64,000 nt of DNA from Mitsuaria chitosanitabida ATCC BAA-476 = NBRC 102408. GTDB taxonomy: Bacteria; Pseudomonadota; Gammaproteobacteria; Burkholderiales; Burkholderiaceae_C. Made by a program: the position numbers and the translations under genes. This document shows, one piece after another, positions 32,991 through 54,251 of this stretch. The DNA is taken from contig NZ_BCYP01000006.1 of the NCBI RefSeq assembly GCF_001598255.1, positions 310,001 through 374,000 on the forward strand, given 5' to 3'. How positions within the stretch are numbered: the stretch's first letter is position 1; the number at the start of each line of letters is the position of its first letter. The notes beneath the pieces are model-generated. The model worked only from the letters and a program-made list of their open reading frames with translations, had not been told where the DNA came from and did no database searches.

Positions 32991-33065
32991 GGGCGGTTAG
33001 CTCAGCGGTAGAGCACTGCCTTCACACGGCAGGGGTCGCAGGTTCGAACCCTGCACCGCCCACCA
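32991..33065 (+). tRNA. tRNA-Val (anticodon CAC), copy 1
   Basis: A complete 75-nt cloverleaf with encoded CCA. Acceptor GGGCGGT pairs with ACCGCCC; the anticodon stem CTGCC/GGCAG holds the loop TTCACAC, so the anticodon is CAC, reading GUG valine codons. The T-arm is GCAGG-TTCGAAC-CCTGC. Identical to the second copy. Confidence 0.97.
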
Positions 33066-33102: not shown

Positions 33103-33177
33103 GGGCGGTTAGCTCAGCGGTAGAGCACTGCCTTCACACGGCAGGGGTCGCAGGTTCGAACCCTGCACCGCCCACCA
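33103..33177 (+). tRNA. tRNA-Val (anticodon CAC), copy 2
   Basis: Identical to the first copy, 37 bp downstream, also with encoded CCA. The two are probably co-transcribed and end at the terminator that follows directly. Confidence 0.97.
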
Positions 33178-43013: not shown

Positions 43014-44477
43014 ATGGGATTCAAGGTCGTCATCCTCTGGACCGACGCGGCGCTGTGGGCGATGTTCGCGGCGCTGGTCCTCTACATCGTGCGGCTGGTC
43101 CGCCGCCCGCATCTGCGCGCCAACTGGCAGCGCGTGCTGCGCGACCCGGCGGCGCTGAGCGCCGGCGTGGTGCTGACGCTGTTCCTGGGCCTCACCGCCC
43201 TGGACAGCCTGCACTTCCGCCGCGCGCTCGCCGACAGCCCCAGCGGCCAGCAGTTCTACGAGACCCGCACCGAATCCGTGCTGGACCTGATCCTGGCGCG
43301 CCAGATCGAGATGCGCGAGACCAGCTACTCGGCGCCGCTCGCGTACCAGGGCTTCAACATGGACAGCGTCGAGCACGGCAAGGAGATCGTGCGCGAGTTC
43401 CCGCGCCTGGCCTTCGGCGGCGCGCACCTGAAGGATCCCGAGCGCGAGTGGGCCGCGGACGTCACCGGACGCGCGCTCGCGGGTCTGGCGGGCGGGGCGC
43501 TGGCCTCGGTGCTGATGGCGCTCGCCATCGCGGCGACCCTGGCGCCGCATCACGGCGGCTTCCGCCGCGGCCTGCGCGACCTGCTGGGCGACCGCACGCA
43601 TTACCCGTGGCGCGCCGCCTGGGCGACGCTGTCGGTGACGGCGCTGCTGGCCGGTCCGACCATCGCGCTGATGGGGCACTACCACGTGTTCGGCACCGAC
43701 CAGACCGGCAACGACGTGCTCTATCAGGCGCTCAAGAGCATCCGCACGGCCTTTGTCATCGGCGCGCTGTCGACGCTGGCGACGCTGCCCTTCGCGCTGG
43801 TGCTGGGCATCCTGGCGGGCTACCTGAAGGGCTGGGTCGACGAGGTCATCCAGTACTTCTACACGGTGCTGACCTCGGTGCCCAACGTGCTGCTGATCGC
43901 GGCCTGCGTGCTGATGGTGCAGGTCTTCCTGGACAAGCACCCCGAGGCCTTCGCCACCGGCGCCGAGCGCGCCGACCTGAAGATCTTCCTGCTGTGCGCG
44001 ATCCTGGGCGTCACGGGGTGGGCCACGCTGTGTCGCCTGGTGCGCGGCGAGACGCTCAAGCTGCGCGAGGCCGATTTCGTGCAGGCCGCGACCGCCTTCG
44101 GCGTGCGCGACACCACGATCATGGTCCGCCACATCGTGCCCAACGTGATGCACCTGGTGCTGATCTCGCTGGTGCTGAACTTCTCCGACCTGATCCTGTA
44201 CGAGGCGGTGCTGACCTACGTCGGCGTGGGCGTCGATCCGGGGATGAACAGCTTCGGCGGGATGATCAACCTGGCGCGCTCGGAGATGAGCCGCGACCCG
44301 GTGGTGTGGTGGAGCTTCATCGCCGCCTTCGGCTTCATGGTGAGCCTGGTGCTGGCGGCCAACCTGTTCGCCGACGGCGTGCGCGATGCCTTCGATCCGC
44401 GCTCGCGCAAGTTGCGGCCGCAGGTGCTCTCCTTGAAGAAGAAAGCCGCGGCCAAGGCCGGCGGCGCGCAGGCCTGA
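43014..44477 (+). CDS. ABC transporter permease (OppC/YejE-like), extended
   Basis: 487 aa, about 150-190 residues longer than typical OppC. The N-terminal half has three membrane segments separated by a large periplasmic insert (ARQIEMRETSYSAPLAYQGF...). The C-terminal half is a normal permease: FGTDQTGNDVLYQALKSIRTAFVIG, then the EAA loop READFVQAATAFGVRDTTIMVRHIVPN and a last helix. The tail LKKKAAAKAGGAQA is basic. 35 bp after the first permease and 11 bp before the ATPase. Confidence 0.92.
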   Translation: MGFKVVILWTDAALWAMFAALVLYIVRLVRRPHLRANWQRVLRDPAALSAGVVLTLFLGLTALDSLHFRRALADSPSGQQFYETRTESVLDLILARQIEMRETSYSAPLAYQGFNMDSVEHGKEIVREFPRLAFGGAHLKDPEREWAADVTGRALAGLAGGALASVLMALAIAATLAPHHGGFRRGLRDLLGDRTHYPWRAAWATLSVTALLAGPTIALMGHYHVFGTDQTGNDVLYQALKSIRTAFVIGALSTLATLPFALVLGILAGYLKGWVDEVIQYFYTVLTSVPNVLLIAACVLMVQVFLDKHPEAFATGAERADLKIFLLCAILGVTGWATLCRLVRGETLKLREADFVQAATAFGVRDTTIMVRHIVPNVMHLVLISLVLNFSDLILYEAVLTYVGVGVDPGMNSFGGMINLARSEMSRDPVVWWSFIAAFGFMVSLVLAANLFADGVRDAFDPRSRKLRPQVLSLKKKAAAKAGGAQA

Positions 44478-44488
44478 GGAACGACGAG

Positions 44489-46378
44489 ATGTTGAAGATC
44501 GACGACCTGCGGGTGCACCTGGACGCCGACGTCGGCCTGGTGCGCGCCATCGACGGCATGCGGCTGACGCTGGCGCAAGGCCAGACCTTCGCGCTGGTGG
44601 GCGAGTCCGGCTGCGGCAAGAGCATGACCGCGCTGGCGCTGATGCGACTGCTGCCCGACAACGGCCGCATCGCCGGCGGCCGCCTGGACCTGGACGGCCA
44701 GGACCTGTTCGACCTGAGCGAGGCTCGCATGCGCGACGTGCGCGGCGGGCGCATCGGGATGATCTTCCAGGAGCCGGGCACCAGCCTGAATCCGGTGATG
44801 AAGGTGGGCGCGCAGATCGTCGAGGCGATCGAGGCCCACACGCCGCTGCGCGGCGAGGCCGCGCGCCAGAAGGCCATCGACTGGCTGCGCCGCGTCGGCA
44901 TCCCCGAGCCCGAGCGCCGCATCGACGAGTACCCGTTCCGGCTTTCCGGCGGCCAGAAGCAGCGGATCATGATCGCGATGACGCTGGCGGCCGAGCCCGA
45001 CTTCCTGATCGCCGACGAGCCCACCACCGCGCTGGACGTGACCATCCAGGCGCAGATCCTGGAGCTGCTCAAGGACCTGCAGCGCGAGCGCGGCCTGGGC
45101 CTGCTGCTGATCACCCACGACCTGGGCGTGGTGTCCGGCATGGCGCACCAGGTGGCGCTGATGTATGCGGGTCAGATCGTCGAGGTCGCCCCGGCGGCGG
45201 ACTTCTTCGCCGCGCCCAAGCATCCGTATGCGCGATTGCTGTTGCGCGCGTTGCCCGACGCCGAGCGTCGCGGCGAGCCGCTGGCCGCCATTCCCGGCAC
45301 CGTGCCGCCGCTGTGGCAGGACTTCGACGGTTGCCGCTTCGCGCCGCGCTGCGACCGGACCATGGTCCATTGCGGCTCGACCTGCCCGTCGCTGGCGGCG
45401 GTGCAGGATCGGCCAGCCGGCCACGAGGTGCGCTGCCTGCTGTACACGGATCCGCGCGAGGCGCTGGTCCGGCCGGCCCCGCAGCCCGCCGCGGCGGGGC
45501 GTCCGCCCGCGGATGCGGACGCCTCGCGGCCGCTGCTGCTGGAGGTCAAGGATCTGAAGGTCCGCTATCCGCTGTCGAGCGGACTCTTCGGCGGCGCCAA
45601 GCGCTGGTTCGACGCGGTGGGCGGGGTGTCCTGGTCCATCGAGTCCGGGCGCACGCTGGCGCTGGTGGGCGAGTCCGGCTGCGGCAAGACGACGACCGGC
45701 AAGGCCATCGTGCAGTTGCTGCGCCGCGTGGCCACCATCGAGGGTCAGGCCTTGCTCCATCCGCCGGTGGACGTCGCGACAGGGCAGGGCGGAGCGCCGC
45801 GCGACCTGTTCTCGCTGGACGGCGAGGCGCTGCGCGAGGCGCGCCGTCAGGTGCAGATCATCTTCCAGGACCCCTTCGCCTCGCTGAACCCGCGGCTGCG
45901 GGTGCAGGAGGTGCTGGAGGAGGGCTTGCTCGCGCTGCGGCCCGAGCTCGACGCGCCCGCGCGGCTGGCCTTGCTGCATGACCTGGTCGACCAGGTGGGC
46001 CTGCGCCGCGACGCGCTGGGTCGGTTCCCGCACGAGTTCTCCGGCGGCCAGCGCCAGCGCATCGCGATCGCCCGTGCGCTGGCGGTCGAGCCGCGACTGA
46101 TCGTCTGCGACGAGCCGACCTCGGCGCTGGACGTCTCGGTCCAGGCGCAGATCCTGAACCTGCTGCGCGAGCTGCAGCGCAGCCGCGGCCTGTCCTTCCT
46201 GTTCATCACCCACAACATCGGGGTCGTCGAGTACATCGCCGACGAGGTCGCGGTGATGCAGTCCGGCCGCATCGTCGAATCCGGGCGTTGCGACGCGGTC
46301 CTCGGCCAGCCGCGCGAGGCCTACACCCGCACGCTGCTCGCGGCCGTGCCGCGGGTGGAGCGTCGCACCGCCGCCTGA
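44489..46378 (+). CDS. ABC transporter ATP-binding protein, fused double ATPase (OppDF/YejF-like)
   Basis: 629 aa with two complete nucleotide-binding domains. Domain 1: Walker A GESGCGKS (38-45), signature LSGGQKQR, Walker B LIADEPTTALD; then the oligopeptide C-terminal extension (HPYARLLLRALPDAE, CRFAPRCDRTMVHCG) with a cysteine group. Domain 2: Walker A GESGCGKTTT, signature FSGGQRQR, Walker B IVCDEPTSALD. The layout binding protein-permease-permease-fused ATPase is the same as yejABEF. The frame is open far upstream (43055), but that part is a shadow of the permease gene. Confidence 0.94.
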   Translation: MLKIDDLRVHLDADVGLVRAIDGMRLTLAQGQTFALVGESGCGKSMTALALMRLLPDNGRIAGGRLDLDGQDLFDLSEARMRDVRGGRIGMIFQEPGTSLNPVMKVGAQIVEAIEAHTPLRGEAARQKAIDWLRRVGIPEPERRIDEYPFRLSGGQKQRIMIAMTLAAEPDFLIADEPTTALDVTIQAQILELLKDLQRERGLGLLLITHDLGVVSGMAHQVALMYAGQIVEVAPAADFFAAPKHPYARLLLRALPDAERRGEPLAAIPGTVPPLWQDFDGCRFAPRCDRTMVHCGSTCPSLAAVQDRPAGHEVRCLLYTDPREALVRPAPQPAAAGRPPADADASRPLLLEVKDLKVRYPLSSGLFGGAKRWFDAVGGVSWSIESGRTLALVGESGCGKTTTGKAIVQLLRRVATIEGQALLHPPVDVATGQGGAPRDLFSLDGEALREARRQVQIIFQDPFASLNPRLRVQEVLEEGLLALRPELDAPARLALLHDLVDQVGLRRDALGRFPHEFSGGQRQRIAIARALAVEPRLIVCDEPTSALDVSVQAQILNLLRELQRSRGLSFLFITHNIGVVEYIADEVAVMQSGRIVESGRCDAVLGQPREAYTRTLLAAVPRVERRTAA

Positions 46379-46888
46379 GCGGCCCTGTCGCGGTCCGGCG
46401 CGCGCCTCGGGAGAGGCCCGCGCGTCCCTTTCGGCCCTCGACGGCCCTGGAATCCTGAACGTTACATGAACGACACGAAGCGCCTCGCGCGCATCGTGTC
46501 CGTTTCGTACGTCCGAACCTCGATGAAACAGCGCCCGCCCCCTGTGCGCGAACGGATCCATGACTTCCTTTTTCCTGTCCGGAATCCGGTCAATTCCGCC
46601 CCGATTCGGGCGCTCTGAGGAGCGTTACGTTTGTTGACGACTCGTTAGGGCGTTCATCGCCCGTTGCTGCCGTGCAACGCTGAGCGTATGCCGCACGCTT
46701 GGTGTTTTCCCGCGCTTTCCTAGCGCCTACAAGGAGTTGCTAGCCTATTTAGGGAGATTACGGGGAGGTTAACGGCGGTGACCCCCCTGACACTCGCTCG
46801 CACGCTGGCGTGAGACGGATGCTCACCCGGTGGAGACCGACCCCCAACACCCTCGGCGGCGGTCCCAACACATCTAGGAGTGCGACAC
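46379..46888. other. Long leader region before the TonB-dependent receptor, 510 bp
   Basis: No gene is supported. From 46648 to 46726 four short stem-loops lie almost end to end: GGGCG/CGCCC (46648-46662), CGTTGC/GCAACG (46662-46679), AGCGT/ACGCT (46683-46699) and GCGCT/AGCGC (46712-46726). A fifth lies at 46797-46814. A TTGACG at 46634 resembles a -35, but no -10 fits. Base composition is lower in GC than in the flanking genes from about 46620 to 46780. Confidence 0.55.
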
Positions 46889-49630
46889 ATGTTCAAAAGA
46901 AACACGCTCAGCGCGGCCGCTCTGGCGGCGCTGAGTCTGGCGGGGATCGGGGCGCAGGCGCAGGAAGCGTCCTCGCAACAGCTCGAGCGCGTGGAAATCA
47001 CCGGCAGCTCGATCCGTCGCGCGGCGGCCGAGACCGCCTTGCCCGTCACCACCATCACCCGCGAGGAAATCACCCGCACCGGCGCCACCACGGCCCAGGA
47101 CCTGATCGGCCTGCTGCCGTCGAGCTTCGGCGGCACCGTGGTGTCCAACAACGTGGGCGCCACCGGCGGCGCGGCCACCGCCAACCTGCGCGCGCTGGGC
47201 TCCAAGTACACGCTGGTGCTGCTGAACGGTCGTCGTATCGCCAACTTCGCCTTCGGCAACAACCCGGTCGACCTGAACTCGATCCCGCTGTCCGCCGTCG
47301 AGCGCGTGGAAGTGCTGCGTGACGGCGCCTCCTCGCTGTACGGCGCCGACGCCGTCGCGGGCGTCATCAACTTCATCCTGCGCAAGGACTACCAGGGTGC
47401 CGAGGCCAGCTACGCCGAGTACAAGGGGACGCACGGCAATGGCGGCAACTCGTCCATCGTCACCGGCCTGGCGGGCTTCGGCGATCTGGCCAAGGACCGC
47501 TTCAACGTGATCGTCTCGGCCAGCCGCGAAGAGATCACGGCGCTGAAGGCCGTCGACCGCGAGTTCGCCAAGACCGCGGTCCGTCCGGACCTGGGCATCA
47601 ACAAGTCCTCGCCTCGCAACGGCATCCCGAACCTGAACTTCAGCGACACCAACGGCAACAAGTACGTGGGCGTCAACCCGCTGCGCTTCGGCGGTTGCAA
47701 CTCGACCGAGTTCGCGCTGGTGATCCGCAACGCCACGCAGTGCGGCACCGACTACGCCCGCTTCATCGACCTGATCCCCGAACAGTGGCGCGTCAACGGC
47801 ACGGCCCGCGGCGTCTTCCAGGTCAACGAGGACAACCAGATCATCGCGGAGGTCATGCAGAACCGCGATCGCGTCCAGTCCTTCTACTCGCCGGCCCCCT
47901 ACACCGTGAACATGGTGTACCCGACGACCGGCCGCTTCTACCCGTCCTCGATCACGCTGCCGGACGGCACCAAGGTCACGCCGACCGGCCCGATCAGCGG
48001 CACCTGGCGGACGGTCGCCGGTGGCGGCCGCTCCGACATCACCGAGACCAAGATGACCCGCGCCCTGATCGGCGCCAAGGGCACCATCGCGGGCTGGGAC
48101 TACGACACCGCGCTCACGTACTCGAAGAACGAGGGTGAGATCTTCTTCGGCCCCGGCCAGTACAGCTACGCCAAGCTGACCCCGCTGGTGGCCGCGGGCG
48201 CCATCAACGTCTTCGGCCCGCAGGACGCCACCAGCAAGGCGGCGCTCGACAGCGCCCAGCTGACCGGCCGCCAGCAGCAGGCAAGCTCCACGTCGACCGA
48301 GGTGGACTTCCGCGTGTCTCGCGAGATCTATCAACTGGCCGCGGGCGCCGTCGGCGCGGCGTTCGGCGCCAACTTCCGCAAGGAAAAGCTGGACCAGTTC
48401 TCCGAGCCGGTGCTGGCCTCGGGCGACGTGGTCGGCGGCAACGGCCCGGTGCCCAGCGTGTCCAGTGGTCGCAAGGTCTTCGGCGTGTTCGGCGAGCTGG
48501 TGGTCCCGATCCTGAAGAACCTGGAAGCCAACTTCGCCGGTCGCTACGACAAGTACAAGAACGACTTCGGCACCAGCTTCACCAGCTTCAGCCCCAAGGC
48601 GACGCTGCGTTATGAAGTGAGCAAGGACCTGGTGCTGCGCGGCTCGGTGGCCAAGGGGTACCGCGCGCCGACGCTGTACGAGAACCTGCGCCCCTTCACC
48701 ACGGGCAACAACACCGCGGCCAACTGGAGCGACCCGATCCGCTGCCCGGGCGGCGTGGCGATCACCAACACCGTCAACCCGGTCGACTTCTACAAGAGCG
48801 AGTGCGAGGTCCAGCTGGACGCCGCCACTTCGGGCGACCGCAACCTGAAGCCGGAGAAGTCCAAGCAGTTCTCGCTGGGTATCGCCTTCTCGCCGATCCA
48901 GGACCTGACCACCTCCATCGACTACTGGAATGTGGACATCAAGGACCCGATCGTCGCCAAGTCGGAGATCCAGGTGCTGAGCAACCCCAGCGCCTACGCC
49001 CAGTACATCTACCGCTATGACCCGGTGAACGATCCGGACGCCGCGCACCCGATCGCCGGCAGCCAGAACAAGGACTTCCCGATCGCCTACGTGTACCTGC
49101 CGCAGGAGAACACGGGCAAGACCTACGCGTCGGGTCTGGACTTCAGCGCGCTCTACCGCCTGAAGGCCGGCGACTGGGGCACCTTCGGCGCCCAGTTCGA
49201 CGGCATGCTGCTGCTGACGCACGGCTACCAGTACATCGGCCTGCCCAAGACCTCCGACCTGGGCAAGTTCAAGGACTTCGGCGCGGTGCCGCGCTGGCGC
49301 CATGCCCTGACCGTGATGTGGAAGCGCAGCTTCTGGGACGTCTCGCTGACCAACAACTTCACCAAGGGCTACGAGGACTACACCGACCCCACGTCGGTCG
49401 GCCCCGACTACCCGCTGGTGCGCAAGGTCGGCAACTACTCCACCTGGGACGCGCAGGCCTCGCTGTCGCCGACCAAGGCGCTGACCTTCACCTTCGGCGT
49501 GAAGAACCTGTTCGACAAGGAACCGCCGTCGTCGCGCAACAGCCTGAACTTCCAGGTGGGCTATGACGCGACCTACACCAACCCGATCGGCCGCCAGCTG
49601 TACGGCCGCGTGAACTACAAGTTCTTCTGA
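46889..49630 (+). CDS. TonB-dependent outer-membrane receptor
   Basis: 913-aa TonB-dependent receptor. The signal peptide ends near residue 25 (GIGAQAQ). The TonB box is probably in QQLERVEITGSSI (about 30-42). The plug domain follows: AETALPVTTITREEI, ALGSKYTLVLLNGRRIANF, SIPLSAVERVEVLRDGASSLYGADAVAGVINFILRK. The beta-barrel ends with the aromatic C-terminus NYKFF. Two Cys pairs appear in loops (CNSTEF...QCGT; RCPGG...SECEVQ). I start at ATG 46889 with AGGAG upstream. Its neighbours suggest peptides or peptide-linked metals as ligand; this is inference. Confidence 0.93.
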   Translation: MFKRNTLSAAALAALSLAGIGAQAQEASSQQLERVEITGSSIRRAAAETALPVTTITREEITRTGATTAQDLIGLLPSSFGGTVVSNNVGATGGAATANLRALGSKYTLVLLNGRRIANFAFGNNPVDLNSIPLSAVERVEVLRDGASSLYGADAVAGVINFILRKDYQGAEASYAEYKGTHGNGGNSSIVTGLAGFGDLAKDRFNVIVSASREEITALKAVDREFAKTAVRPDLGINKSSPRNGIPNLNFSDTNGNKYVGVNPLRFGGCNSTEFALVIRNATQCGTDYARFIDLIPEQWRVNGTARGVFQVNEDNQIIAEVMQNRDRVQSFYSPAPYTVNMVYPTTGRFYPSSITLPDGTKVTPTGPISGTWRTVAGGGRSDITETKMTRALIGAKGTIAGWDYDTALTYSKNEGEIFFGPGQYSYAKLTPLVAAGAINVFGPQDATSKAALDSAQLTGRQQQASSTSTEVDFRVSREIYQLAAGAVGAAFGANFRKEKLDQFSEPVLASGDVVGGNGPVPSVSSGRKVFGVFGELVVPILKNLEANFAGRYDKYKNDFGTSFTSFSPKATLRYEVSKDLVLRGSVAKGYRAPTLYENLRPFTTGNNTAANWSDPIRCPGGVAITNTVNPVDFYKSECEVQLDAATSGDRNLKPEKSKQFSLGIAFSPIQDLTTSIDYWNVDIKDPIVAKSEIQVLSNPSAYAQYIYRYDPVNDPDAAHPIAGSQNKDFPIAYVYLPQENTGKTYASGLDFSALYRLKAGDWGTFGAQFDGMLLLTHGYQYIGLPKTSDLGKFKDFGAVPRWRHALTVMWKRSFWDVSLTNNFTKGYEDYTDPTSVGPDYPLVRKVGNYSTWDAQASLSPTKALTFTFGVKNLFDKEPPSSRNSLNFQVGYDATYTNPIGRQLYGRVNYKFF

Positions 49631-49657
49631 TCGGGCGGGCACGCGCCTTGCTCCCCC

Positions 49658-49680
49658 AAGACCGCCTTCGGGCGGTCTTT
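49658..49680 (+). terminator. Terminator after the receptor gene
   Basis: AAGACCGCC (49658-49666), a UUCG-type TTCG loop and GGCGGTCTT (49671-49679), ending in TTT. A stable classical hairpin. Confidence 0.88.
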
Positions 49681-49916
49681 CACCTTCTGGGCGATGGCTT
49701 TCGTTTTCGGACGAGATCCGCCCCGGTGTGGTGCGTTCTAGGGGTTATCTCTAGGACGGGGCGGGCAGGGCGTCAGGTCAATACCAGTAAGATACCAGGA
49801 CACCTATCAAGCCCGCCCACAGCCGGACCGTGGGCGTTGAAGAGCAGGTCCCGGCGAGTTACATGGGGTGATCAAGATGCTGGGCGAGGTTCGCATGCTG
49901 GGGCAAACCCCATGAC

Positions 49917-49943
49917 TTGCGGTTCTGCCAAGTCGTTTATGAT
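49917..49943 (+). promoter_or_regulatory. Candidate promoter for a small RNA or the tonB leader
   Basis: TTGCGG (49917-49922) and TATGAT (49938-49943) with 15-bp spacing, slightly short of the optimum; shifting the -35 one base gives 16. Confidence 0.5.
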
Positions 49944-49949
49944 CAAGGT

Positions 49950-50037
49950 CGCGAAAGGTGGTCAATCCTGTAGTTTTGCTACAAGAATTTGACCGATCCT
50001 TGAGACGCCCGCGGCCACAAGCTGACGGGCATTTTTG
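49950..50037 (+). ncRNA. Candidate small RNA or terminated leader upstream of tonB
   Basis: From a start near 49950 the sequence would fold as a stem GGTCAA/TTGACC (49960-49965 with 49989-49994) enclosing GTAG/CTAC (49970-49973, 49979-49982), and then a terminator: GCCCG (50007-50011) with CGGGC (50026-50030), inner CGGC/GCTG and a CACAA loop, followed by ATTTTTG. Promoter, fold and terminator together suggest a transcript of about 88 nt. I do not recognise a known RNA family. Confidence 0.45.
50007..50036 (+). terminator. Terminator-like hairpin in the tonB upstream region
   Basis: A 9-bp stem with one bulge and one G-T pair, then ATTTTTG. It lies 254 bp before the tonB start. Confidence 0.6.
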
Positions 50038-50289
50038 TTGAGTCGGGTTCGTATCGTGCCCTGGGTTTTCGAGTCTTCGTGTGTCCCATCCCTGCATTCG
50101 GCAGGTCAGCGGTCCCTGGCGCTTCGGCGGCTCGGCATCCGCATGGCTCGCCGCTCGCACAGCCGGCAAGACAGGCGCTGCTGACCCCAGGTTGCGGCGA
50201 GAACGTCTGAACAGACCCCACGCTGTGTCGAGTCGAACTCCCCTTGTAGTCTCGATGAAAGAAATTCGCAGTTTGATGAAGGAGCGCGC

Positions 50290-50934
50290 ATGAACTTTGC
50301 GCAGGATAAAGGCGGGTCATCGCGTCTGACGGGCCTCGGCCTCGTCGTGCTGGTCCACGTCCTGATCATCGGCGCCCTGGCCAGCGGCCTGGCGACGAAG
50401 ATCAAGGAAGCCGTCAAGGGGCCGATCGACGTCAAGGTCGTCGAGGAGAAGGTCAAGCCGCCGCCGCCGCCGGAGAAGGTCATTCCTCCCCCGCCGGACA
50501 TCAAGGCGCCGCCGCCGCCGTTCGTTCCGCCGCCGGAAGTGGTGGTGACGGCTCCGCCGCCGCCGACGCCCGCCGTCGCGGTGCAGTCGAACACGCCGCC
50601 GCCGCAGACGGACTTCCGTCCGACGCCCGCTCCGACGCCTCCGGCACCTCCGGCCCCGTCGCCGACCAAGGTCCGTTCGGCCATCGGCAGCTGCACCAAG
50701 ATGGGCAAGCCGGAAATGCCGGCGCTCAACTGGAGCGGCACCGCGAGCTACAAGGCCACGTTCACCGTCAAGGCCGGCAAGATCACCGAGATCTCGCTGG
50801 CGACGCTGCGCGGCGCCAACGACCGCAAGGCGGACCGTGCTCTGAAGAGCGCGATCACCTCCGCGCTGGCCGAGACGTACGAATGCCCTGGCGACGCGAT
50901 CCTGGAACAGGAATTCGTGTTCAACATGGAATGA
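50290..50934 (+). CDS. tonB: Energy transducer TonB, atypical C-terminus
   Basis: 214 aa. One N-terminal membrane anchor (LTGLGLVVLVHVLIIGALASGLA), then a Pro-rich periplasmic spacer (KPPPPPEKVIPPPPDIKAPPPP and more, about residues 55-135) and a compact C-terminal domain of about 85 residues. The usual TonB C-terminal YP...A...G.V pattern is weak; instead there is SCTKMGKPEMPALNWSGTASYKATFTVKAG and YECPGD, whose two cysteines may form a disulfide. AAGGAG lies before the ATG. It is followed by exbB after 97 bp and should power the receptor encoded upstream. Confidence 0.85.
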   Translation: MNFAQDKGGSSRLTGLGLVVLVHVLIIGALASGLATKIKEAVKGPIDVKVVEEKVKPPPPPEKVIPPPPDIKAPPPPFVPPPEVVVTAPPPPTPAVAVQSNTPPPQTDFRPTPAPTPPAPPAPSPTKVRSAIGSCTKMGKPEMPALNWSGTASYKATFTVKAGKITEISLATLRGANDRKADRALKSAITSALAETYECPGDAILEQEFVFNME

Positions 50935-51031
50935 TCGGCGGATCGCTCCGATCCGATCGACCGAATGAAGGGGCCACCGCGCCCCGACCCCTCAACCTGA
51001 GTTCAAGACTTTTTGCGTAGGAGCTAACTCC

Positions 51032-51886
51032 ATGATCTCTCGTCTGTCTGCCTTGTTCGCGGCCGTCGCCTGCGCCGCGACCCTGGCCGTCTCCCCGCTG
51101 GCTGCCCAAGCGCAAGACCAGGCCGCCTCGGCCGCCGCTTCCGCCGCCGACACGACCGCCGCTCCCGCTGCCGACATCGCTCCCGCCGCCGTTGCCGAAG
51201 CTCCTGCCGCCAAGCCCGTCGACAATCCCTACAGCCTGGGCAACATCGTCGCCCACGGCAACATCGTCGACCAGATCGTCCTGGCGATCCTGTTCGTGAT
51301 GTCGCTGGGCTCCTGGTACATCCTCTTCACGAAGCTGTGGGACACCTCCAAGATCGCTCGTGAAGCCAAGGACGTCCGCGCCACCTTCTTCAAGAAGGCG
51401 TCGCTGGCCGAAGGCATCAAGGGCCTGAGCGAAACCGGCGCGTTCCGCTACATCGCCCAGACCGGTGTCGAGGCTTCGGACCACCACGAAGGTGCCCTGA
51501 CCGAGAACATCGACCACAACACCTGGGTCACGATGAACATCGACCGCGCCGTCGGCGAAGTGAACTCGCGCCTGCAAGGCGGCCTGGGCTTCCTGGCCAC
51601 CGTCGGCTCGACCTCTCCCTTCATCGGCCTGTTCGGTACCGTGTGGGGCATTCTGCAAGCGCTGACCCAGATCGGCGTGGCCGGTCAAGCGTCGATCGAC
51701 AAGGTCGCCGGCCCCGTGGGCGCCGCGCTGATCATGACCGCCATCGGTCTGGGCGTGGCCGTTCCGGCCGTGCTGGGCTACAACTGGCTGGTCAACCGCA
51801 ACAAGTCGGTCATGGGTCAAGTCCGTGCCTTCGCCGCTGACCTGCACGGTGTCCTGATGGGCAGCCGCAAGGTCGCGGGCCGCTAA
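51032..51886 (+). CDS. exbB: ExbB proton-channel protein with N-terminal periplasmic extension
   Basis: 284 aa. A signal-like N-terminus (SALFAAVACAATLAVSPLAAQAQ) and an Ala-rich stretch of about 45 residues precede the MotA/TolQ/ExbB core; the core has three membrane helices near residues 85-105, 185-207 and 225-250, with LGFLATVGSTSPFIGLFGTVWGI as the pore signature. With ExbD it converts proton flow into TonB motion. Codon use (CGT, CAA, GAA, GCT more common than in neighbours) hints at high expression. Start ATG 51032. Confidence 0.93.
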   Translation: MISRLSALFAAVACAATLAVSPLAAQAQDQAASAAASAADTTAAPAADIAPAAVAEAPAAKPVDNPYSLGNIVAHGNIVDQIVLAILFVMSLGSWYILFTKLWDTSKIAREAKDVRATFFKKASLAEGIKGLSETGAFRYIAQTGVEASDHHEGALTENIDHNTWVTMNIDRAVGEVNSRLQGGLGFLATVGSTSPFIGLFGTVWGILQALTQIGVAGQASIDKVAGPVGAALIMTAIGLGVAVPAVLGYNWLVNRNKSVMGQVRAFAADLHGVLMGSRKVAGR

Positions 51887-51909: not shown

Positions 51910-52338
51910 ATGGGGATGAACGTAGGTTCGTCCGGTGGCGACGATGAAGTGGTCTCGACCATCAACACCACGCCCCTCGTGGACGTGATGCTGGTGCTCT
52001 TGATCATCTTCCTGATCACCGTTCCGGTGGTGACGCAATCGGTGGGGGTGACCCTGCCGAAGGAGACGAACGTCATCCGCGTCACCAAGCCGGAAAACAT
52101 CGAAATCGCGGTGACCAAGGATGGCGACATCTACTGGGGCGTGCAGCCAGTTCCGGACACGGAAACGCTGGTCGCGCGCCTGAAGAAGGTGGCGGTTCTG
52201 AATCCTCAGCCGGAAGTTCACATCCGTGGCGATGAAAAGACGCGCTACGAGAACGTGGGCAAGGTGATGGTCGCGTGCCAGCGCGCGGGCATCATGTCCA
52301 TCAAGTTCGTCACCGAGCCGCCGGCTCGTGGTGGCTGA
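51910..52338 (+). CDS. exbD: ExbD/TolR family protein, copy 1 of the tonB operon
   Basis: 142 aa. One N-terminal helix with the essential aspartate in NTTPLVDVMLVLLIIFLITVPVV, then a periplasmic domain (VGVTLPKETN...EVHIRGDEKTRYENVGKVMVACQRAG). It pairs with ExbB as part of the proton channel. 23 bp after exbB and 12 bp before the second exbD. Both exbD proteins begin MGMNVGSSGG, a shared start that points to duplication. Confidence 0.94.
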   Translation: MGMNVGSSGGDDEVVSTINTTPLVDVMLVLLIIFLITVPVVTQSVGVTLPKETNVIRVTKPENIEIAVTKDGDIYWGVQPVPDTETLVARLKKVAVLNPQPEVHIRGDEKTRYENVGKVMVACQRAGIMSIKFVTEPPARGG

Positions 52339-52350
52339 AGGAGCTGAACA

Positions 52351-52782
52351 ATGGGTATGAATGTTGGAAGCTCCGGCGGTGGTGAAGATCCCGAAACCAT
52401 GCTGGACGTCAACACGACGCCGCTGATCGACGTGATGCTGGTGCTGCTGGTGATGCTGATCATCACCATCCCGATCCAGCTGCACTCGGTGAATCTGGAC
52501 ATGCCGCCTCCGCAGCCGAACCAGCCGCACGTGGACCCGATCGTCCATGAAGTGGCGGTCGACTTCGACGGCACCGTGTTCTGGGACGGCGCCGCCGTTC
52601 CCAACCACGCGGCGCTCGAAGCCAAGCTGGCGGAAGTGGTGGCGATTCCGGATCAACCGGAAGTGCACATCAAGCCGAACAAGCTGGCCGATTACGGCTA
52701 CGTCGCCAATGTGATGGCGTCGGCGCAGCGTCTGGGCGTCAAGAAGATGGCGATGGTCGGGAACGAGCAGTTCCTGAACTGA
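52351..52782 (+). CDS. exbD: ExbD/TolR family protein, copy 2 of the tonB operon
   Basis: 143 aa, same layout as the preceding gene: NTTPLIDVMLVLLVMLIITIPIQ with the channel aspartate, then a divergent periplasmic domain (LHSVNLDMPPPQPNQ...EVHIKPNKLADYGYVANVMASAQRLG). Tandem exbD genes are known beside some ExbB proteins, for example in Xanthomonas; the two may form a heteromer. A terminator hairpin follows at 52814. Confidence 0.93.
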   Translation: MGMNVGSSGGGEDPETMLDVNTTPLIDVMLVLLVMLIITIPIQLHSVNLDMPPPQPNQPHVDPIVHEVAVDFDGTVFWDGAAVPNHAALEAKLAEVVAIPDQPEVHIKPNKLADYGYVANVMASAQRLGVKKMAMVGNEQFLN

Positions 52783-54119: not shown

Positions 54120-54214
54120 TCGCGCGGAACGAGGGCGCGCGCGAGCGCGCTGCTCGTCGGCCGCCGAGGCGCGCGTGGGGCTCACACGAGTGCTCACCGG
54201 CGCCCCCAAACGAC

Positions 54215-54251
54215 AAGGCCTCCCGGCGCAAGCCGGGAGGCCTTTCTCTTT
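54215..54251 (+). terminator. Strong terminator ending the TonB locus
   Basis: AAGGCCTCCCGGC (54215-54227) pairs with GCCGGGAGGCCTT (54232-54244) over GCAA, followed by TCTCTTT. A 13-bp perfect stem. Confidence 0.92.

Follow-up and report, generated by a model that had tools for sequence, protein, structure and literature searches.

A conserved hairpin-terminator element upstream of tonB in Burkholderiales, probably the attenuator-like start of the tonB leader

TonB powers the import of large nutrients, among them iron complexes and vitamin B12, and is common to the receptors that depend on it. Among described regulatory RNAs, the closest counterparts of the element reported here are the transcription attenuators of mRNA leaders, such as that of trp, in which a promoter is followed by a structured leader, an intrinsic terminator and only then the genes. 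The element has the same order of parts, but differs from trp-type attenuators in that neither a competing antiterminator fold nor a conserved leader peptide before its terminator was found. Some small RNAs, such as rnTrpL and SreA, are themselves derived from attenuators; the terminated leader considered below would likewise be a stable RNA of small size, perhaps with a second role, but, unlike these two, the element has yielded no sign of a target in trans or of a conserved seed. Another structured RNA candidate near tonB is HMP2_1032, which can be set beside the element by description only and which differs in being described as palindromic, 106 bp long and entirely from Bacteroidetes (PMC8040213). 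No tonB leader RNA or attenuator for the bacterial group considered here was found in the open-access literature.

The DNA under study, hereafter the window, is a stretch of 64,000 nucleotides from Mitsuaria chitosanitabida, in which a TonB-dependent receptor gene (46880-49630) is followed by the element and then by tonB (50290-50934). A sequence-only reading of this DNA had offered the intergenic element either as a free-standing sRNA or as a prematurely ended tonB leader. The second account fits better: the element is tied to tonB and not to the receptor, the conserved sequence extends beyond the terminator as far as the tonB start, and in six relatives a -10 box stands before tonB without the terminator, while the first account is left without a conserved seed. 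In our assessment the element is probably the prematurely terminated, attenuator-like 5' end of the leader of a tonB-exbB-exbD-exbD operon, and not a free-standing sRNA. The genes of this operon are:

50290-50934, plus strand: tonB, the predicted C-terminal domain of its product matching TonB structures
51032-51886, plus strand: exbB, of the ExbB/TolQ family (PF01618)
51910-52782, plus strand: two exbD genes, at 51910-52338 and 52351-52782, of the ExbD/TolR family (PF02472 in both)

The product of tonB has no Pfam match, and its NCBIfam matches, a weak one to GltJ and one at chance level, both lie far under the cut-offs. Its predicted structure (mean pLDDT 61.8, with residues 151-214 at 74-87 by blocks) has a helix at the N-terminus, a linker of proline-rich sequence and a domain of beta-beta-alpha-beta order. 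In a Foldseek search nothing matched this model with an E of 0.001 or lower, but TonB and its homologues filled the first 15 rows (best E 0.014), and in a second structural comparison TonB and its homologues took the top 13 rows (Z 9.1 to 7.3), with TolA domains next at 6.3 and less. Judged by this structural model, the gene downstream of the element is tonB. For two of the three exb genes the NCBIfam scores of TolQ/TolR exceed those of ExbB/ExbD, all being under the cut-offs, so that it is the TonB neighbour that justifies calling these genes exbB and exbD.

The element itself and the promoter region before it comprise the following features:

49900-49911, plus strand: box GGGGCAAACCCC, which ends 26 nt before the -10; from its conservation, a candidate activator site that would replace a -35
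49938-49943, plus strand: TATGAT, the -10 box of promoter P1, kept in 16/16 genomes of the genus
49950-50037, plus strand: predicted short RNA of about 88 nt, based on fold and covariation, with its start placed from the -10
49955-50001, plus strand: hairpin 1, a long imperfect stem beginning beside the predicted start, based on covariation, fold and a like architecture in other genera
50007-50036, plus strand: intrinsic terminator with a GCCCG...CGGGC stem and a U5 tract, from a folding-based scan (-14.2 kcal/mol)

The motifs named in the sequence-only reading are present as described, namely the TATGAT, the nested stem of GGTCAA/TTGACC enclosing TGTAG/CTACA, the terminator hairpin (50007-50030) and the ATTTTTG behind it (50031-50037), and the proposed length of about 88 nt agrees with the distance from the start predicted near 49950 to 50037. 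The G+C-rich terminator stem-loop followed by its U-tract has the form of an intrinsic terminator. The 96 nt from 49945 to 50040 fold at -37 kcal/mol (z -3.37, with 1/200 shuffles equally good), and the 401 nt from 49900 to 50300, taken as a whole, fold no better than shuffles (z -0.30). The further claim that the RNA holds no coding frame stands in so far as no frame holds across the relatives; mechanical open reading frames do cross the region, including, by eye and in this species, a GTG frame through the hairpin. Any frame through the element is broken by its variation in length, which ranges from 90 to 95 nt over 17 sequences, and in the same set no conserved short frame of the leader-peptide kind was seen 5' of the terminator. 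Sequence searches for further copies in the genome of this strain gave only short matches (E 0.2 or worse), and a covariance model of the element gave one weak additional match (E 0.044).

The element also matches no Rfam family, none having been recognised in the sequence-only reading either: neither the search of the window with Rfam at gathering level nor that of 49640-50300 at E up to 10 gave a match at the element, and among the loci of 17 relatives there were only two sub-threshold matches, which lie in L098 at a distance from the element. GCCGGCAAGACAGGC looks like the B12 box of the cobalamin riboswitch, a likeness that was dropped, there being no Rfam match. Elsewhere in the window, Rfam BjrC68 matches at 54163-54251 with 39.4 bits, the cut-off being 39, in a gap whose flanking genes appear to converge, and two neighbouring tRNA-Val(CAC) genes with equal scores lie at 32991-33065 and 33103-33177.

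The covariation that the sequence-only reading had left to be sought is present: in a set of 17 sequences, of which 16 come from one genus and one from another, a relatedness that inflates such comparisons, 8 pairs changed on both sides, against 1.6 in shuffles (0/500 as high). In these sequences 96.6% of cells pair in the consensus fold, against 33 to 44% when the structure is slid, and the covariation score reaches 0.199, shuffles giving 0.164 (0/500 as high); further pair types do not rise above shuffles (78/500 as high). A second pair count (5 both-sided pairs against 1.8, with 89.1% of cells paired) was set aside, its structure being in the wrong register. Mean conservation in the 17 sequences is 0.91 at paired positions and 0.72, the lowest in the RNA, at unpaired ones, and in the same sequences no unpaired run of more than 5 nt is conserved outside the U-tract; together these observations speak against a pairing seed. 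Hairpin 1 as such has a conservation of 0.84, with 27/58 positions invariant over 15 genomes of the genus. At the level of sequence comparison the conserved RNA element is real.

The promoter ahead of this RNA is unlike the one first proposed. The supposed -35, TTGCGG at 49917-49922, finds no support, its mean identity over 15 genomes of the genus (G006 excluded) being 0.63 with 0/6 positions invariant, and its spacer of 15 nt to TATGAT is short for sigma-70. By comparison, 11/12 positions of the box GGGGCAAACCCC are invariant over 15 genomes of the genus. A consensus promoter scan of 49000-51000 found nothing, either at P1 or between the terminator and tonB, and P1 lacks the pair of -10 and -35 hexamers at 16-18 nt that would mark a sigma-70 promoter: the -10 is conserved and no -35 is. 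An activator-dependent promoter is a possible reading of this arrangement. At the corresponding place in other genera the -10 reads TATGAT, TAAGAT, TATCAT, TATAAA, TAAAAT or TAGAAT. A box of the GGGGCAAACCCC type followed by a -10 at a spacing of 32-42 nt occurs in 34/46 tonB upstream regions, a count that describes and does not test, since both patterns were drawn up after the data had been seen; the remaining 12 regions have, by eye, related box variants or none. In the genome of this strain the exact GGGGCAAACCCC occurs twice, the same as its reversed control. Farther upstream, at 49781-49797, stands ATACCAGTAAGATACCA, an 11-bp-spaced direct repeat that is unique in its own genome with one mismatch allowed; several other genera have similar stretches, ACCAGTARRATACC, before tonB, though not at a constant distance from it.

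The wider comparison rests on a pattern for the context of the tonB start, which was found in 36/399 genomes of the family, representing 15/141 genera, and in 16/16 genomes of the genus, giving 47 genomes in total; of these, 46 were read, this one included, and G273 was left out. A folding-based scan of 330 nt upstream of tonB in the 46 genomes reported a terminator on the sense strand in 38 and on the antisense strand in one; with 4 shuffles made per region, 23% of them gave one. The site reported in G028, at -72, differs from the usual one and is counted among the 38, and the terminators of G101, G212 and G289 lie just outside the scanned span; with the first excluded and the other three added, a terminator stands between promoter and tonB in 40/46 genomes and 13/15 genera. 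This is the placement expected of an attenuator, between the promoter and the first gene of the operon, with P1 presumed to drive tonB. A stricter scorer, severe on bulges, reported 20/46 regions on the sense strand, none on the antisense strand and 9% of shuffles, and missed the terminator of the window. The terminator pattern of the consensus scan missed it as well, probably because the stem at 50007-50036 has an internal mismatch.

Six of the 46 genomes have the -10 before tonB and lack the terminator: 1) G192 and G067 keep both box and -10; 2) G028, G182 and G265 have the -10 and a hairpin without a U-tract; and 3) G270 has the -10 alone. In 39 genomes from 13 genera the -10 and the usual terminator could both be placed, and the RNAs so delimited, of which 11 folds were written out, contain first a hairpin and then the terminator; among those 11, G069 has a pair of short hairpins where the others have a long one. 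On genus average the first hairpin takes up 0.88 of its stretch, shuffles reaching 0.69, and it spans at least 0.83 in 12/13 genera, the exception being g55 at 0.53; the mean fold-energy z is -2.08, below -1 in 12/13 genera with the exception of g59. Single genomes are rarely exceptional in span, only 5/39 being matched by 5 or fewer of 100 shuffles. No mutually exclusive antiterminator fold was found, all 39 RNAs losing 11.8 to 18.7 kcal/mol without the outer terminator stem. A self-contained RNA switch is therefore unlikely, and control would need a factor, unless the terminator sets a fixed level.

The element sits before tonB in 16/16 genomes of the genus and in the relatives, while the gene upstream of it varies. 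The covariance model matched 64/399 genomes of the family at E 0.1, and of the best 30 model loci, which were opened, 22 lie just before tonB. The other eight (L136, L137, L143, L145, L146, L148, L152 and L153) are not before a detectable tonB; of these, L145 has a receptor match and stops where its contig does. The terminator part of the model seems to account for many of the weak matches. Genus g76, to which L136, L143 and L148 belong, has several model matches without tonB nearby, four being listed for G205, and these are perhaps a repeated element.

On the upstream side, the receptor is 32-46% identical to that of the window over the aligned part in 13/15 relatives within the genus and 92% identical in G008, and no upstream receptor was detected in G006. 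Pfam was applied to the upstream genes of 14 of the 46 genomes, taken in the first instance from the tonB strand, and in 12 of these a gene on the tonB strand was assigned, the classes being five: 1) TonB receptors or similar outer membrane barrels; 2) ABC ATPases; 3) Asp/Asn hydroxylases; 4) 2OG-Fe oxygenases; and 5) an S66 peptidase. The receptor assignment in G333 is below the Pfam cut-off. G270 has no Pfam family upstream on either strand. In G192 a TonB-receptor gene lies upstream on the strand opposite to tonB, with no other Pfam family there; this receptor is transcribed away from tonB, so that tonB in G192 needs its own promoter in the gap, for which P1 is a conserved candidate. The window has an ABC ATPase gene that ends at 46378, and in G006 and the genera g61, g100 and g102 an ABC ATPase of 75-77% identity to it precedes the tonB leader. 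In the window the TonB receptor stands between the ABC ATPase and the leader (43055-49630), which suggests a later insertion of the receptor.

Conservation does not end at the terminator, and the remainder of the leader contains four features:

50038-50064, plus strand: conserved block just 3' of the terminator, in which GGG/CCC may form a hairpin at 50045-50061
50091-50105, plus strand: downstream hairpin CCTGC-ATTCG-GCAGG, examined by an arm-swap test
50157-50228, plus strand: distal leader domain, with a possible helix of GCACAGC (50157-50163) and GCTGTGT (50222-50228)
50255-50293, plus strand: conserved mini-frame MKEIRSLMKERA and its stop, which overlaps the tonB start (ATGA)

Over 15 genomes of the genus the first block has 26/27 positions invariant (conservation 0.98), and further conserved islands toward the tonB start lie at 50157-50187 (mean identity 0.98), 50223-50245 and 50257-50292 (34/36 positions invariant). 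In the arm-swap test of 50091-50105, carried out on 11 representatives, pairing within a species scored 4.45 against 3.93 for swapped arms (permutation p 0.0006, shared ancestry uncorrected); G075 has no such motif, and G106 and G006 pair weakly there. By eye, the two g136 species differ in the helix of the distal domain by one compensatory change, and G006 does not keep this helix. Frames like MKEIRSLMKERA, again by eye, occur in many relatives and are broken in G123; the mini-frame may be a coupled leader peptide or merely a conserved start region. RNAalifold gave only -1.75 kcal/mol for the post-terminator alignment of 30/46 genomes, which is against a well-aligned structure there. This alignment leaves out G192, G067, G270 and G275, in which the terminator pattern did not match (in G275 the sole cause is the lack of a G behind its T-run), and, by hand, 12 genomes with other or unalignable sequence. 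Support for the post-terminator hairpins is modest. A pairing of the RNA 5' end with the tonB start, noticed by eye, was rejected, as it fails in the window's own species. Candidates for a separate tonB promoter are a conserved TAGAAT at -114 to -120 in g55 (5/5 genomes read) and the stretch TGTGATACAA in g100 (3/3 genomes read, by eye). Within the genus of the window, TATCGT at 50052 is a possible -10, kept as TANNNT in 16/16 genomes and, by eye, not kept in other genera.

These last candidates bear on the reading in which the element, with a promoter and a terminator of its own, is a free-standing sRNA acting in trans and a separate promoter downstream serves tonB. Promoter elements, hairpin and terminator do frame a compact RNA, and its two-hairpin plan persists while the sequence changes. 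The same RNA is, however, least conserved where it is unpaired (0.72 against 0.91) and has no conserved unpaired run above 5 nt outside the U-tract, it is tied to tonB, and conservation goes on beyond its end. Given the two genera, g55 and g100, with possible second promoters, this reading is only weakened, and we hold it to be unlikely.

Another reading is that the terminator serves mainly to insulate tonB against read-through out of the upstream gene, the hairpin doing nothing more, and the same-strand upstream gene in 12/14 genomes tested, together with the terminator that shortly follows the receptor gene in some distant genera, is in keeping with this. Yet the receptor of the window has its own hairpin just past its stop (49660-49677), such an insulator would block P1 too, since P1 lies upstream of it, and hairpin 1 would not need covariation; we regard insulation as the main role as improbable. 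That no RNA is made at all, the pattern reflecting chance or conservation of the DNA only, draws on most hairpin 1 folds being singly unexceptional in span against shuffles. It would have to account for a fold at z -3.37, compensatory changes, a trend of span and energy over genera and a ratio of 38 to 1 between sense and antisense terminators, and appears very improbable.

For the leader reading, then, comparison of the genomes shows conserved promoter elements, predicted folds, a bond to tonB and conservation beyond the terminator. We infer, further, an active P1, partial termination and a supply of tonB by read-through. On this basis P1, with its box and -10, would start transcription near 49950, and the nascent RNA would fold at once into the 5' hairpin and then the terminator hairpin. 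Part of the transcription would stop at about 50037 and yield a compact RNA of about 88 nt, and the remainder would read through into tonB, by way of a structured leader about 340 nt long. As a means of setting the proportion, a switch made of RNA alone is less likely than a protein or some different factor, or than a ratio that is just constant. As a broader and tentative possibility, on which we would not yet count, the element may represent a previously unrecognised class of Burkholderiales tonB leader RNA, made up of a 5' hairpin, a terminator and a conserved read-through region, which would tune the TonB complex through a factor responding to some signal, with the short RNA as a second product. 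If the level of TonB is set by early termination in the leader, uptake capacity in these bacteria would gain a control point that standard promoter analysis misses.
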